Source of the DNA: Ruegeria profundi
Lineage (GTDB): Bacteria; Pseudomonadota; Alphaproteobacteria; Rhodobacterales; Rhodobacteraceae
Reading direction: 5' to 3'
Length of the DNA: 64,000 bases
Assembly (NCBI RefSeq): GCF_001507545.1
Contig: NZ_LQBP01000005.1
Location: forward strand, 1-64,000
Each line of letters begins with the position of its first letter. Position 1 is the stretch's first letter. The notes beneath the pieces were generated by a model that saw only the letters and a list, made by a program, of their open reading frames with translations, was not told the DNA's origin and did not search any database. This document shows positions 7,676 through 43,558 of the stretch, piece by piece. Made by a program: the position numbers and the translations under genes.

Positions 7676-7888
7676 GCAGCACGTGACTGGTCGCGCCACA
7701 AACCCAGTCGCTGTCTGTTTCGATCTTAGACTTTTTTCGTTTGCAAAGTGGAGTTGGATCACTTGTGATTAAATTTGTTTGATCTTTTGCAGCCTATTCA
7801 ACTTCAGAGCCAAGCCCGAGCGACACGCGGCGCCAGCGCTGAGAGGAACGGAAGCACCGGTTGCATTGTGCCCTGCAAAGCTGCGTCC

Positions 7889-38460: not shown

Positions 38461-39003
38461 TTATTTCTTTTCAAAAAACAAGATAACTTCGCCCAGACGG
38501 ACCCCGAAGCGCGAGACATAGGCGCGGTTCAGCAGACGATCATCCGTCAGCAGCCACATCCAATCGTCGAAGTTCACGCGCATCGTTCCGTCTTTGACCG
38601 GTAGATCGATCTTATATTTCCAATTGAACGTATCGCCACGCTCGATCCCGCTGGCGGTGCCCAGAACGCCGGGTGCGGTACCGGTCCAGGTGTCTTCGCC
38701 GGTTTTGGTCAATGTCCAGATGCGTTGTTCGGTGGCACCATCATCATAGACGAAATCCTCGACCAAGGTCAGGGTTTCGCCATCCCAGGTTCCGTCAATG
38801 TCGACAGTAAAGCGGCGGGGTACATTGCCCAGAACATCCTGAAACTGACCGTAGGCAACAGTTTTTCCTTCAAAGAACTCTTCAAGGTTCAGTTGCCGGT
38901 CGGACAGAAATGTCTTGGGGACGCGCGGTTTCGCGGAACAGGCGGCCAAAGCCGCAAGCCCCGCGATGGCAAAACCCAGGATCAGAACGCGGCGAGCAAT
39001 CAT
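38461..39003 (-). CDS. DUF3833-family lipoprotein
   Basis: A 180-residue protein whose N terminus (VLILGFAIAGLAALAACSAK) ends in a lipobox with Cys22, so it is a lipoprotein. The mature part fits DUF3833: LNLEEFFEGKTVAYGQFQD, VDIDGTWDGETLTLVEDFVY, a W-x-G segment and NFDDWMWLLTDDRLLNRAYVSRFGVRLGEV. DUF3833 proteins occur beside FAD oxidoreductases and cyclopropane-synthase-like genes in lipid-modification clusters of several proteobacteria. It is the last gene of the ECF-promoter operon and overlaps the preceding DUF3833 gene by 4 bp. Function unknown. Confidence 0.88.
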   Translation of the reverse strand: MIARRVLILGFAIAGLAALAACSAKPRVPKTFLSDRQLNLEEFFEGKTVAYGQFQDVLGNVPRRFTVDIDGTWDGETLTLVEDFVYDDGATEQRIWTLTKTGEDTWTGTAPGVLGTASGIERGDTFNWKYKIDLPVKDGTMRVNFDDWMWLLTDDRLLNRAYVSRFGVRLGEVILFFEKK

Positions 39004-39617
39004 TGAACGACCCTCGACTCTGCCGCCGCGTCATATCCGTTGGTACCGCTGACATGGGCGGTTTTGGTTTCCGGTGCCGGACGCATTGTAGCAACCAGTT
39101 CAGCAACCTTGAGGCCAAACTTGCGCATTTCCGAACGGTTCATGATCACGCCATTTTCGGTCAGATACATCCAATCAGTGACATCCAGCGTGTGCCCGCC
39201 CGCGTCCTGCGGCAGGATGATGCGATAGGTTAGCTTGACGGTCGAACCCGATATGGTTCCTTTGCCTTCGCCCACGATATCATCTGCCGTGGCGGTAAAC
39301 GTGTTGCCGGTCCCAAGCGTCAGATGCCATTTCCGTGTCATTTTCTTGCCGTTGGAATAGGTGAAATACTCGGCCAGTGTACCGGTGTTTCCATTCCATT
39401 CCCCGACCATGCGGGCGACGAAACTGTTCGACATTTTGCCATTGGGCCCATAGATCAACCCTTCGGACAGTATTTCGCCGGTCAGAACCTCTTTCATTCT
39501 GAACTCGGGGCCGGTGCCGGAATAATCGGTGGGCGATTGCGATCTGAAGCTCAGGAAACGGTTCTTGGAAACTAAAAGAACGAGGATTGCGAGCAAGAAA
39601 ACAACAAGCGTATTCAT
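39000..39617 (-). CDS. DUF3833-family protein, membrane-anchored
   Basis: A 205-residue paralogue of the neighbouring lipoprotein with an N-terminal hydrophobic helix (NTLVVFLLAILVLLVSKNRF) but no lipobox, so it is probably anchored by this helix. Shared family pieces are LTGEILSEGLIYGPNGKMSNSF, GEWNGNTGTLAEYFTYSNG and DVTDWMYLTENGVIMNRSEMRKFG. Starts and stops overlap by 4 bp on both sides, so it is co-translated with the MFS carrier and the lipoprotein. Two different DUF3833 proteins in tandem may sit at the two membranes; that is inferred. Confidence 0.85.
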   Translation of the reverse strand: MNTLVVFLLAILVLLVSKNRFLSFRSQSPTDYSGTGPEFRMKEVLTGEILSEGLIYGPNGKMSNSFVARMVGEWNGNTGTLAEYFTYSNGKKMTRKWHLTLGTGNTFTATADDIVGEGKGTISGSTVKLTYRIILPQDAGGHTLDVTDWMYLTENGVIMNRSEMRKFGLKVAELVATMRPAPETKTAHVSGTNGYDAAAESRVVQ

Positions 39618-40840
39618 TTGGCTGTAACCTCCGTGGGCAACGTCAGGACCAACCCGAACGCGCCAAGTTTCAGGATGCAGGGCAGTACGGCATACGCGAT
39701 GGTGAGTGTCCGCAAAGCTTCGGCGGAATTCGCCTGCCCCGGCGTGAAACCGCTGCGTTCCAGCAACGGCAGGGTGAAAAAGGCAGCAAGCGCAAGGCCC
39801 AGCTTGCCTGCAAATGACCAGATGCCAAACGCGGCCGAGGCGTTCAGCCCTGCACGTGTCAACACGACTGAAAACATGGCAGGCAGCACTACCATATCCG
39901 CCCCAAGCGCGGCACCCGAGGCGAAGCAGATAAGGGCAAAGCCTGTCAGGTCCCCCGCCGACAACATCGCTGCACCGACAAAACCGGCGATCGACAGGGG
40001 CATGGCAATCATCAATGTCTGTTTCGCGCCAATCCAGTTGCTGAGTTTAGCCCAGATCGGCACGGTCGCCCCCGCGCTTAGGAAAAACAAGATCAACAGC
40101 GGTCCGGCCTTGCCGGGCAGTTGCAGGCGGTCCTCAACAAAGAACAGAAACAGAGTTGATGTGATGGCGACTGGCAGGCTGTTAATCAGCGCCAGAAACA
40201 AAAGGCGCAGCGCGCCGGCTTGACCAAGCCCCGCAAATGACAACCCTTCACCTGTGATCGGTGCGCGACGCCACATCGGAAGCGTCATGATCAGGGTGAA
40301 GATCGCCAACAATCCTAGAAACAGGCCAAACGCGGGATAGCCTTGTGCGCTGGCCCCCAATGCCACGAACAAGGTCGGGGCGCTGGCAGCAAGAACAACT
40401 CCGGTCAATTGTCCTCCTTCGCGCCAGGCGGCCAGTGTCATAAGTTCCTTCGGGTCAGTGCGTTTTGCCAAGGTCGCGCTTCGGCCATACAACAATATGG
40501 TGCCCACGCTGTAGGCCGAGAACAAAAGGATCAAAACAGACACTAATGCAGCGATACTTGCCCCCTCGGGTAAACCAAATAGCAAGGGAAAACCCAGCGC
40601 CAGTCCAAACGCAGCGACAGCAGCAAACAGGGCTTGCGCGCGCGGCCAACGGTCGATGGCCCAACCGATAAGCGGATCCTGCACCAGATCGACCAGTCGG
40701 ATTACCAGCAGAACGGTACCGATCACAGCCAATCCGATACCCAGATTAACGGCGGCAAATCGCGGCAAATGGATATACAGCGGAATACCTGCTGCCGCCA
40801 ACATCAGGGCGTATAGGCTGACCCGGGGGTAAAGCATCAC
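39614..40840 (-). CDS. MFS transporter, GPH/MelB-like
   Basis: A 408-residue transporter with twelve hydrophobic segments. The motif LVIRLVDLVQDPLIGWAIDRWPRAQ matches the cation-sugar symporter (GPH) family, where the DxxxDPxxGxxxD segment lies between helices 2 and 3. Sugar transport is unlikely in this operon; a lipid or small hydrophobic intermediate is possible. It overlaps the chalcone-isomerase-like gene and the first DUF3833 gene by 4 bp each. Substrate unknown. Confidence 0.85.
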   Translation of the reverse strand: MMLYPRVSLYALMLAAAGIPLYIHLPRFAAVNLGIGLAVIGTVLLVIRLVDLVQDPLIGWAIDRWPRAQALFAAVAAFGLALGFPLLFGLPEGASIAALVSVLILLFSAYSVGTILLYGRSATLAKRTDPKELMTLAAWREGGQLTGVVLAASAPTLFVALGASAQGYPAFGLFLGLLAIFTLIMTLPMWRRAPITGEGLSFAGLGQAGALRLLFLALINSLPVAITSTLFLFFVEDRLQLPGKAGPLLILFFLSAGATVPIWAKLSNWIGAKQTLMIAMPLSIAGFVGAAMLSAGDLTGFALICFASGAALGADMVVLPAMFSVVLTRAGLNASAAFGIWSFAGKLGLALAAFFTLPLLERSGFTPGQANSAEALRTLTIAYAVLPCILKLGAFGLVLTLPTEVTAK

Positions 40841-41382
40841 TGGCCTTTCAATTGCCGGGTGAAGCTGGCTGATCTTGTGTCATTGCCAAGGAAGATGGAC
40901 ATGAAGGCCCGCTTGGCCCCCGGGTAGGACAGGGTGCAGGTTTTTTGGCCGTTGCGCCAAAATCCAACCTGGTTCGCACCTTCCGAGATGGCGACGTAGT
41001 TATCGCCCCGGCTCACGCCTTGGAAACACTGCTCCAATTGACCTGCGGTGGGCGCAGGGTTGCCCTGGCGCGCCATCTCATCCAGTGTCGACTCGACCAG
41101 GGCTTTTTGTTTCAGGTTCTTTCGGTAGGTCAGTTGAATCCCAAAATCTTCATTCCAATTGAACGCGTCACCCTGAGAGGTGAAAAGCTTGGCGTCGTAA
41201 ACCGGTACACCCAAAAATCGAAACGTCGCGCTGCCCTTGAGCTGCGCGTCAGAAAGCGTCTGATTGATAGGAGACGCAGCAAGCCCGCCCGGAGCCAGTA
41301 TCACCAAGGAAACTAGCACCGTACGGCAAGCGTCAGGTATCAGCCTATGCAGGAATGACCGGGTCTTTTTCAAGCGTTCCAT
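40837..41382 (-). CDS. chalcone-isomerase-like periplasmic protein
   Basis: A 181-residue protein with an N-terminal hydrophobic signal (RTVLVSLVILAPGGLAAS) and a chalcone-isomerase-like domain: LKGSATFRFLGVPVYDAKLFTSQG, LTYRKNLKQKALVESTLDEMARQG, CFQGVSRGDNYVAISE, AFMSIFLGND. In bacteria this fold binds fatty acids rather than making flavonoids. It overlaps the FAD oxidoreductase by 38 bp and the MFS gene by 4 bp. A carrier role for a modified lipid between membranes is a reasonable guess. ATG 41382 is preferred over 41412. Confidence 0.85.
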   Translation of the reverse strand: MERLKKTRSFLHRLIPDACRTVLVSLVILAPGGLAASPINQTLSDAQLKGSATFRFLGVPVYDAKLFTSQGDAFNWNEDFGIQLTYRKNLKQKALVESTLDEMARQGNPAPTAGQLEQCFQGVSRGDNYVAISEGANQVGFWRNGQKTCTLSYPGAKRAFMSIFLGNDTRSASFTRQLKGQ

Positions 41383-42667
41383 TGTCAGCTCCGAGTGTTT
41401 GCGGGGTGCCATTCAGACGCTCAACAACATGCATCGCGCTGGCAATCCCATCTTCGTGAAAGCCGTGCCGATTGTAGGCGCCGGCAAACCAAGTTCGGTT
41501 CTGTCCCTGCATCTCGCGGATTTGTCCCTGGGCTTTCAGGGCGGCTTTGTCGAATACCGGATGGGCAAATTCGACCTTGTCATAGATTTTATCCGCGGGA
41601 ATTTCCGATGACGCGTTCAGCGTCACGAACAGCGGATCGCTGTCCGGAATGTTCTGTAGCCGGTTCATCCAATATGTCACGCCGACGTTTCCGGCTTGTG
41701 ACCTATAGGTCCAGCTTGACCAGCAGGCGCGCCGCCGTGGCATCTGGCCCGGGTCACAGTGCAAAATCGCGGTGTTGGGCTGATAACGGATAGACCCTAA
41801 TGCGGCCTTTTCTGCATCCGTTGCGGCCTCACCTAGAATCGACAGCGATTGATCGGAATGAGTGGCGAGAATGATCTCATCGAACAGATCGGCCTGTCCT
41901 TGGCTGTGTACCGTCACGCCGGTATCGTCCCGGTGAATTTGATCAACCGGGCAGGCCAGGCGTATTTCACTGCCACGCGCCCGCAAAGCAGCATCAATCC
42001 GGCGGACATATTCGATACTTCCGCCTTTGACCGTGTACCACTGATGCTGATTGGCCCGTCCGCTCGCCAACAGGGCATGATTGCGGAAGAACTGCACCAA
42101 AGAGCGGGCCGGGAACTGGTCGACAAACTCCACCGGGGTGGACCAGATGGCGCCACACATGGGCATCAGGTAATTGTGGCGGAACCAATATCCAAGGCGA
42201 AGCTGATCGACCAACTCTCCGATCGTGGTGTCATCATCCTTGGCGGCCTCGGGGGCTTCTTTTCCGAACCGTACAATGTCCGCAATCATCTTGTAATAGG
42301 CCGGCCGCGCAAGGTTGCGTTTCTGCGCCGTCAGGGTGCGCAAGTTGTTCAAACCGTATTCGATGCGGCCATCGTCAATCGTGGCCCCAAAACTCATCTC
42401 AGATTTGATGACCGGCACGTTTAGTTCGTCAAACAGACGTGTCAGATACGGATAGGTGGCATAGTTGAAGACAATAAAACCGGTATCGACCGGCTGATCC
42501 CCGTTCTTGCCAGCAAGCACAGTGCGCGCGTGACCACCAAGCCGCGGCTCGGCCTCAAACACGGTCACGTCGTTGTTTTCTGAAAGATAGTAAGCAGCCG
42601 ACAGACCGGAGATACCTGCACCTACTACTGCGATTTTCTTGCGTACGCCTCGGGTTTCGTCGAACAT
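41345..42667 (-). CDS. FAD-dependent oxidoreductase of a lipid-modification operon
   Basis: A 440-residue amine-oxidase-fold flavoprotein. IAVVGAGISGLSAAYYL and VFEAEPRLGGHARTV form the FAD site; DTGFIVFNYATYPYLTRLFDEL, WYTVKGGSIEYVRRI and WFAGAYNRHGFHEDGIASA are typical of the family that sits beside cyclopropane-fatty-acid-synthase-like genes. It would oxidise an acyl chain, for example as a desaturase in furan-fatty-acid synthesis; that is inferred from family context. ATG 42667 is chosen: a GAGGATGG site lies just before it, and an ECF-type promoter would start transcription about 25 bp upstream. First gene of the five-gene operon. Confidence 0.87.
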   Translation of the reverse strand: MFDETRGVRKKIAVVGAGISGLSAAYYLSENNDVTVFEAEPRLGGHARTVLAGKNGDQPVDTGFIVFNYATYPYLTRLFDELNVPVIKSEMSFGATIDDGRIEYGLNNLRTLTAQKRNLARPAYYKMIADIVRFGKEAPEAAKDDDTTIGELVDQLRLGYWFRHNYLMPMCGAIWSTPVEFVDQFPARSLVQFFRNHALLASGRANQHQWYTVKGGSIEYVRRIDAALRARGSEIRLACPVDQIHRDDTGVTVHSQGQADLFDEIILATHSDQSLSILGEAATDAEKAALGSIRYQPNTAILHCDPGQMPRRRACWSSWTYRSQAGNVGVTYWMNRLQNIPDSDPLFVTLNASSEIPADKIYDKVEFAHPVFDKAALKAQGQIREMQGQNRTWFAGAYNRHGFHEDGIASAMHVVERLNGTPQTLGADNGTLEKDPVIPA

Positions 42668-42700
42668 GCCATCCTCTATATGCGACATTTTACAATAAGA

Positions 42701-42726
42701 TACGCATCGTATGCGCGGATGGATCA
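42701..42726 (-). promoter_or_regulatory. ECF-sigma-type promoter, FAD oxidoreductase operon
   Basis: On the minus strand: TGATCC (42726-42721), 16-base spacer, CGTA (42704-42701). This resembles the RpoE/ChrR-type (ECF11) promoter of Rhodobacter. The predicted start of transcription is about 25 bases before the ATG at 42667. It shares a 12-base identical block with the divergent promoter. Confidence 0.75.
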
Positions 42727-42775
42727 ATCGTATTGAATGTTTTCTCGGTGGGCTGATGCGCTGTTGCCCGGGATG

Positions 42776-42801
42776 TGATCCATCCGCTCTGGCCAACCGT
42801 A
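42776..42801 (+). promoter_or_regulatory. ECF-sigma-type promoter, SDR gene
   Basis: TGATCC (42776-42781), a 16-base spacer, CGTA (42798-42801). Spacing and the first six spacer bases (ATCCGC) are the same as in the divergent promoter. The SDR start codon at 42833 is about 25 bases downstream of the predicted start of transcription and has GACGAGGA before it. Confidence 0.75.
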
Positions 42802-42832
42802 GAACCTGCATGACAACAAAAACGGACGAGGA

Positions 42833-43558
42833 ATGAGCAGTTTCAGCGGGAAAACCTATTGGATTATTGGCGCCAGCGAAGGGTTGGGCCACGCGCTGGC
42901 TAAGACGTTAAGCCGTCAGGGCGCGCGGCTGATCCTGTCTGCCCGGAATGCAGACCGCTTGGCTGAAATCTGCGATACGCTGCCCAATGCGCAATCCGTA
43001 CCGTTTGACGTCACCGATCTGGACGCCGTGCGCCGCGCTGCGGTCGAGGTCGCTGAAGTGGACGGGCTGGTCTATAACGCGGGTGCTTATGAGCCGATGC
43101 GCACGGCCGATTGGGATACCGAGGCGGTATTGTCGATGACAGACGTGAACTATACTGGCGCGTTGCGGGTCCTGGGTGAAACAGTGCCGGATTTTGTGCG
43201 CTCGGGCCGGGGGGATATCACCTTGATCGGATCGCTTTCAGGATATCGTGGGTTGCCCGGGGCTGTGGGGTATGCGGCCAGCAAAGCAGCCCTGATTTCT
43301 CTGGCAGAGACGATGCGGTTCGATCTTGCCGGAACTGGCGTAACCGTGCGGATCGTCAACCCGGGTTTCATCAAGACCCGACTGACCGAGAAGAACGATT
43401 TCAAGATGCCGATGATTATGACGCCCGAAGATGCAGCCGAGCGGGTGGCTAAGGCGATGTCACGACGTCGCTTCCGTACTGACTTTCCAGCGCCGTTTTC
43501 CTGGGGAATTCGCTTGCTGGATTACCTGCCGGATCTGCTGGTCTATCGCGAAAAATAG
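42833..43558 (+). CDS. short-chain dehydrogenase/reductase
   Basis: A 241-residue classical SDR. WIIGASEGLGHALAKTL is the coenzyme loop, LVYNAGAYEPM the N-A-G element, and TLIGSLSGYRGLPGAVGYAASKAAL gives the catalytic Ser and Y-x-x-x-K. It likely reduces or oxidises a keto or hydroxy lipid in the pathway of the divergent operon, because both units share an ECF-type promoter. Its gene is a single unit; it ends 3 bp before the convergent imuB gene. Confidence 0.9.
   Translation: MSSFSGKTYWIIGASEGLGHALAKTLSRQGARLILSARNADRLAEICDTLPNAQSVPFDVTDLDAVRRAAVEVAEVDGLVYNAGAYEPMRTADWDTEAVLSMTDVNYTGALRVLGETVPDFVRSGRGDITLIGSLSGYRGLPGAVGYAASKAALISLAETMRFDLAGTGVTVRIVNPGFIKTRLTEKNDFKMPMIMTPEDAAERVAKAMSRRRFRTDFPAPFSWGIRLLDYLPDLLVYREK

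Follow-up and report, generated by a model that had tools for sequence, protein, structure and literature searches.

Divergent RpoE-type promoters between a ufaD-like operon and a short-chain dehydrogenase gene in Ruegeria profundi, and the start geometry of rpoE

Genes flanking the promoter pair

The window, which is the whole 64,000-nucleotide stretch of Ruegeria profundi DNA analysed here, contains a minus-strand operon faced by a plus-strand gene. The first gene of the operon encodes a 440-aa FAD amine-oxidase family protein (P0001, 41345-42667; Pfam Amino_oxidase and NAD_binding_8), which we liken to RSP1091 by family and gene order and refer to as UfaD-like (furan fatty acid desaturase; ufaD below). 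The second gene (40837-41412) overlaps the end of ufaD and encodes a 191-aa protein called chalcone-isomerase-like on a weak match (Pfam Chalcone_3, E 0.001, 19.6 bits against a cut-off of 27). It is followed by genes for a 408-aa MFS/sugar transport family protein (39614-40840, Pfam MFS_2) and for two DUF3833 proteins of 205 and 180 aa (39000-39617 and 38461-39003, both assigned by Pfam), all on the minus strand. The plus-strand gene (42833-43558) encodes a 241-aa short-chain dehydrogenase (SDR, Pfam adh_short). Many non-Ruegeria loci show one DUF3833 match only at the place of the adjacent pair seen here (38461-39617).

Pfam families of the UfaD, UfaO and UfaM types are present in the genome, the likeness to the Rhodobacter sphaeroides proteins being one of family level. 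The protein families of RSP1087-1090 are presumed, RSP1090 being taken to be a DUF1365 protein. RSP1091 (UfaD), RSP1090 (UfaO) and UfaM are described as making furan fatty acids in R. sphaeroides (PMC7380195), and the same source gives 402 aa for RSP1089, 186 aa for RSP1088 and 245 aa for RSP1087. Compared by size only, these three resemble the MFS protein, the second DUF3833 protein and the SDR of the window.

Two divergent promoters

Between ufaD and the SDR gene lie two sites of the form TGATCC-N16-CGTA, pointing away from each other. The ufaD-operon promoter occupies 42701-42726 on the minus strand (TGATCCATCCGCGCATACGATGCGTA; -35 TGATCC at 42721-42726, -10 CGTA at 42701-42704), and the SDR promoter occupies 42776-42801 on the plus strand (TGATCCATCCGCTCTGGCCAACCGTA; -35 TGATCC at 42776-42781, -10 CGTA at 42798-42801). 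Both are of the ECF11 (RpoE) type. An earlier note had proposed this motif on both strands with equal spacing, and reading and scanning the sequence confirmed it. A scan of the window for TGATCC-N14-18-CGTA returned two sites in all, the divergent pair, against a chance level of 0.28 sites expected in 64 kb and at least two sites in 1 of 100 shuffles.

Transcription is predicted to start at about 42691-42693 (minus strand) for the ufaD operon and at about 42810 (plus strand) for the SDR gene. The earlier note had placed both start codons about 25 bp past these positions, each with a good ribosome site. For ufaD this holds, as its ATG (42667) lies about 25 nt on, with a well-spaced AGAGGA; for the SDR gene the distance to the ATG (42833) is 23 nt, and the ribosome site is doubtful because the purine run GAGGA abuts the ATG.

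Conservation of the pair in relatives

All 54 of the 54 genus genomes contain a relative of the FAD protein, with best hits of 51-95% once the own genome is set aside. For footprinting, the best 80 of 574 confirmed loci from named genomes were used, the top ones being Ruegeria with 93% identity, and the 250 nt before the FAD gene were searched for TGATC[CT]-N16-CGTA, with spacers of 8-25 also tried. Among these best 80, the motif was found on the FAD-gene strand in 71, on the opposite strand in 71, and on both together in 66. Spacers other than N16 were absent except for N17 (one, on the FAD side) and N25 (two and one). As a control, the plus-strand motif occurred in 31 of 3657 random 250-nt stretches from the same loci. 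The search pattern itself dictates TGATC and CGTA, whereas the spacing of 16 bp and the identity of the sixth base emerged from the data. The sixth base is mostly C and position 7 mostly A, and later spacer positions carry little information.

Nine of the best 80 loci are without the motif on the FAD side, and nine on the other. TGAACC-N16-CGTA replaces the FAD-side site in five of the nine (L109, L111, L112, L115, L118), carried by four Shimia and one near relative from the Rhodobacteraceae. The gap between the two -35 elements measures 27-32 bp in 19 of the 28 non-Ruegeria loci with both sites (L088-L127), and 37-77 bp in 29 Ruegeria loci (L061-L087 range). A spacing constraint, or an upstream element shared by the divergent sites, is possible.

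The earlier note had also observed that the first 12 bases of the two sites are identical, and the resulting perfect inverted repeat is real (left arm 42715-42726, right arm 42776-42787). Such a symmetric and perfect repeat could be the operator of a dimeric regulator of both genes, with the ECF likeness incidental. The relatives make this very improbable. The six further identical bases (ATCCGC) beyond TGATCC are not conserved in them, and the bases past TGATC(C/T)(A/G) vary. Twelve shared leading bases were found in one of the 66 named relatives with both sites (L116, with letters unlike those of the window), so that 65 fall short of 12; 50 of the 66 share 6-7. Within the genus, 12 shared bases occur in the window alone (30 loci examined, 21 resolved and 9 unresolved by the script). 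Moreover, the distance between the sites ranges from 5 to 90 bp, and the spacing to CGTA is nearly always 16, though 8-25 were tried. The conserved part of the arms is TGATCC, and the dyad-operator role was rejected, as the repeat is not kept; on this comparison the perfect repeat beyond TGATCC(A) is a coincidence, because the rest is not conserved. An extended -35 motif, TGATCCRTYYGC, was likewise dropped: it has 18 matches genome-wide, is not conserved by the relatives, and fits three of nine promoter-positioned sites, namely the window pair and that of the DUF1365 gene.

Gene order across relatives

Gene orders were established by tblastn of the window and rpoE-locus proteins on the best 80 of 574 loci, and fall into three main arrangements. 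In arrangement A, chrR-rpoE faces ufaD-ufaO, and 9 of the 12 loci L129-L140 also show the SDR gene further along. In arrangement B, SDR-ufaO faces ufaD, often with rpoE-chrR beyond. In arrangement C, the SDR gene alone faces ufaD-(CHI)-MFS-DUF3833; this is the order of all 29 Ruegeria loci and of the window. Since rpoE or ufaO(-SDR) fills, in other genera, the side that here is taken by the SDR gene alone, the window locus is, judged by these gene orders, a reshuffled version of the established core regulon.

Positions downstream of the promoters are given below as offsets counted from the first T of TGATCC, offset 34 lying 8 nt after CGTA. Of 38 type B loci examined (L088-L126), 30 were resolved; in 29 of these, ufaO runs 4 nt into the SDR gene, and across the 30 ufaO starts at offset 34 (15 loci), 37 (14) or 35 (1). 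With these starts, type B ufaO would be leaderless or nearly so, with a leader of 0-3 nt.

The window contains a mini-ORF, MTTKTDEE followed by a stop (42810-42836, plus strand). Its ATG coincides with the predicted start of transcription, and its stop codon shares bases with the SDR start codon (ATGA). The mini-ORF starts where ufaO would, and ends with the same ATGA overlap, and for this reason it may be a vestige of a deleted ufaO gene, a suggestion that we hold tentatively and below even chances; it may also be fortuitous. The same two features would also suit a working leader peptide whose translation is coupled to that of the SDR, and an ATG at offset 34-38 with an ORF ending in the same 4-nt overlap occurs in 8 of 30 genus loci (the window and 29 Ruegeria, one unresolved). 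The remaining resolved loci lack such an ORF, as do the six nearest relatives (L142-L147). This counts against the vestige reading too, and we regard a leader peptide as unlikely. A conserved leader peptide was a weak candidate on the same ground.

RpoE-ChrR and other targets in the genome

The earlier note had ascribed the pair to the RpoE/ChrR (ECF11) system, a reading that calls for rpoE-chrR in the genome. The two genes are present, at G000:C5:175683-174367 (minus strand), about 132 kb from the promoter pair on the same contig, behind TGATCC-N16-CGTA. This promoter (TGATCCGGCTTGGGTCGCGCGTCGTA) forms a divergent pair (C5:175692-175759) with the site of a DUF1365 (ufaO-type) gene. The sigma factor carries the ECF Pfam domains Sigma70_r2/r4, and chrR follows rpoE. 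ChrR has the zinc anti-sigma domain zf-HC2 together with Cupin_7, and the motifs HxxxCxxC at 33 and HxHxxxE at 144. Their spacings equal those of the ligands given for R. sphaeroides ChrR, His31-Cys35-Cys38 and His141-His143-Glu147 (PMC6852236). In our locus set this rpoE is L034 7031-7684 (minus strand), or G000:C5:175030-175683, and the other rpoE loci are among L179-L363.

Scanning the genome for TGATCC-N15-17-CGTA, as the earlier note suggested, gave 38 sites. Nine stand at convincing promoter positions, all with N16; the other 29 do not, and the bare pattern is therefore weak evidence alone. The reversed pattern was dropped as a control for this count, as its low number may reflect the rarity of CTAG. 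Apart from the promoters already described, N16 sites precede genes for a photolyase (C3), a fasciclin protein (C1), a sigma factor with Pfam sigma regions (C7), a glutathione peroxidase (C18) and a membrane-fusion-type protein (C2, judged by eye). The C7 sigma factor is presumed to be RpoH-like from its sequence. A CMAS (ufaM-type) match of 292 bits lies in an open frame that starts right after the photolyase stop. RpoE-type promoters stand before ufaD, before the DUF1365 gene and before the photolyase gene preceding the CMAS frame. The earlier idea of a lipid-stress regulon fits this set, as the R. sphaeroides UfaD, UfaO and UfaM are described as making furan fatty acids (PMC7380195).

The gene content of this Ruegeria-like genome suggests an anoxygenic phototroph. 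Two adjacent Photo_RC genes (pufL/pufM type) are found at G000:C3:87467-89125, and because of them the cell probably makes its own photosensitiser.

Two side observations concern the same genes. Two ChrR-type cupin domains (121 and 26 bits) lie in one open frame at G000:C2:505006-505623. Upstream of the DUF1365 (ufaO) gene are short ORFs (L034, about 7730-7835): MYTNEEKNAD from offset 33, and a second, MPIERFTGAAEIFN, which has a ribosome site and whose terminal TTGA includes the TTG presumed to start ufaO.

The pair might instead be served by another ECF sigma factor of the genome. We give this hardly any weight: the same promoter stands before rpoE-chrR itself and before the kinds of genes published for the RpoE regulon, and in relatives with arrangement A it is rpoE itself that lies divergently opposite ufaD. 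The RpoE/ChrR assignment is thus supported both by the sigma/anti-sigma pair with the same promoter and by known regulon genes.

Geometry of the rpoE start

At 42 non-Ruegeria ufaD promoters, offset 34 is A in 81% and offset 33 is C in 50%, and the genes mostly start about 25 nt on. We infer that this is the pattern which transcription start at offset 34 would leave. Among 29 ufaD promoters of Ruegeria, 90% carry T at offset 34 and 100% carry A at offset 35. Transcription there may start at 33 or 35, and the T at 34 counts against an exact offset of 34 for every promoter.

The rpoE gene has an in-frame ATG at offset 34 in 34 of 34 Ruegeria loci and in 108 of 120 loci sampled from other genera in the same family, with the promoter present in 119 of the 120. 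An ATG at offset 34 is found at 2 of 71 ufaD promoters. The 34 Ruegeria loci, four of which came through an order-wide search, are drawn from 52 genus genomes with a match; the 120 other loci comprise 20 from that search and 100 that were fetched. The order-wide search covered 196 genomes, 158 of which matched and 130 of those were examined; the 28 omitted matches were mostly the weakest, plus G078, G127 and G054. G054 and G057, added through a search beyond the family, both have the ATG at 34 in frame.

The 12 loci that depart from the rule comprise three whose in-frame ATG is at 35 or 36, two whose ATG at 34 is out of the rpoE frame, six with a promoter and no such ATG, and one without promoter; six of the last seven are from one genus. 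In the search beyond the family, 120 of 385 genomes matched, and 30 loci were listed, five of them of the same family. Among the best 25 loci outside the family, nine have the promoter, and seven of these nine have an in-frame ATG or GTG at 34-36; one locus lacks the core. R. sphaeroides was not found among the genomes searched (best match 77% identity), and its own rpoE leader thus lies outside the sample.

A coding extension and a predicted internal start

Starting at this ATG, rpoE would encode an N-terminal extension. Across the 34 Ruegeria loci the extension has constant length, its third codon positions vary most, and its pooled pairwise dN/dS is 0.41, compared with 1.36 and 0.79 in the wrong frames and 0.02 for the sigma core. 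By these substitution patterns the extension is coding. About 94% of 109 sequences have L, F, M, I or Y as its second residue.

A putative internal start is conserved as well: 108 of 118 other loci (one locus was left out for lack of the core) and 34 of 34 Ruegeria loci have an in-frame GTG, TTG or ATG at a distance of 23-31 codons upstream of the FxxLF core. In the other-genera loci, valine codons in this zone are GTG in 84 of 95 cases, as compared with 319 of 734 elsewhere, and anti-Shine-Dalgarno pairing is stronger upstream of the internal start than at other zone codons (-4.35 vs -2.85 kcal/mol). Because the zone was defined with the data in view and the loci share ancestry, these statistics and their p-values are descriptive. 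The alignment with the solved R. sphaeroides RpoE chain (2Q1Z) begins with residue 7 of that chain opposite residue 41 of the present protein, and the studied R. sphaeroides protein therefore corresponds to the short form. In L274 a stop codon lies inside the extension, so the long form is not universal.

We consider it probable, with some room for doubt, that in Ruegeria and the other genera sampled rpoE is transcribed from its RpoE-dependent promoter as a leaderless mRNA encoding a dual-start sigma factor, the long form being about 30-45 residues longer, and that induction switches the isoform. RpoE freed from ChrR would produce a leaderless rpoE mRNA with AUG as its first transcribed triplet; ribosomes starting at this 5'-terminal AUG would make the long form, and ribosomes starting at the internal NTG with its Shine-Dalgarno sequence would make the short one. 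In the accessible parts of the literature searched, no ChrR-type RpoE is described as leaderless or as having two forms; this scope excluded many subscription papers, including the primary ones of 1999 and 2008.

Comparison with known systems

The R. sphaeroides RpoE consensus is given as TGATCC(N15)GCGTA (PMC5036791), and rpoE-chrR and the RSP1091-1087 operon are each reported behind an RpoE promoter (PMC3818230, PMC6852236, PMC7380195). As far as these sources describe it, that regulon shares with the present one the promoter consensus, the sigma/anti-sigma pair, the ufaD and ufaO gene types at family level, and proteins of sizes similar to RSP1087-1089. It differs in that here ufaD has the SDR gene as its sole divergent partner, the ufaO-type gene sits opposite rpoE at a distance of about 132 kb, and the operon holds two DUF3833 copies and a chalcone-isomerase-like gene. 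PSPTO_1043 of Pseudomonas syringae, called RpoERsp, has the consensus TGATCCN16CGTA, the same as here, and its listed promoters include that of its own gene with ChrR and that of phrB; the target list given there is otherwise different and contains no ufaD/SDR pair (PMC5507510).

The closest likeness to a sigma factor with two starts comes from Streptomyces coelicolor, in which an autoregulated p2 transcript is reported to give SigR' from an upstream ATG (PMC5472188). The extension of 58 residues (PMC5472188; 55 in PMC4921905) is said to make SigR' a Clp substrate. Both cases combine an autoregulated promoter, an upstream in-frame ATG, a longer sigma isoform (predicted for RpoE) and a zinc anti-sigma partner (PMC5472188, PMC4921905). 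They differ in organism, in that the long form is described as unstable in Streptomyces (PMC5472188) whereas the long RpoE here is predicted from sequence, and in that the portions of the two sources consulted mention no leaderless sigR transcript (PMC5472188, PMC4921905). A leaderless mRNA of an ECF sigma factor is on record for mycobacterial SigE (sigEp1), although that promoter is described as the one with a WhiB7 motif and is not the sigma-dependent promoter (PMC4921905). A dual-start RpoE would be a convergent counterpart of SigR/SigR', coupling the stress response to leaderless translation. SigR is taken here to belong to an ECF group other than that of RpoE.

Implications for the RpoE regulon

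Very probably, then, the two divergent promoters are RpoE (ECF11) promoters, with ChrR as anti-sigma factor, that drive the ufaD operon and the SDR gene together with the regulon. Singlet oxygen or organic hydroperoxides would inactivate ChrR and leave the RpoE-polymerase active. Leftward, a transcript of ufaD, the chalcone-isomerase-like gene, the MFS gene and the two DUF3833 genes would be made, and rightward one of the SDR gene, both concurrently with those of rpoE-chrR, ufaO, the photolyase/ufaM-type unit and the other targets. The promoters, their conservation, the sigma/anti-sigma pair and the set of genes expected to be co-regulated are read from the DNA itself; singlet-oxygen induction, furan fatty acid synthesis and a requirement of the lipid genes for ChrR turnover would follow by analogy with published work on R. 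sphaeroides.

The system itself is known ECF11 biology and is new in gene order only. The present analysis is of value for the reshuffled gene order of the locus and for the fixed placement of the rpoE start. Footprinting shows that the furan-lipid gene keeps its RpoE promoter despite reshuffled neighbours, and the published RpoE-ChrR core regulon is extended to a Ruegeria-like genome with reaction-centre genes. Should a leaderless stress mRNA indeed yield RpoE in two lengths, the singlet oxygen response model, for which the structure solved is that of the short protein, would miss a layer.
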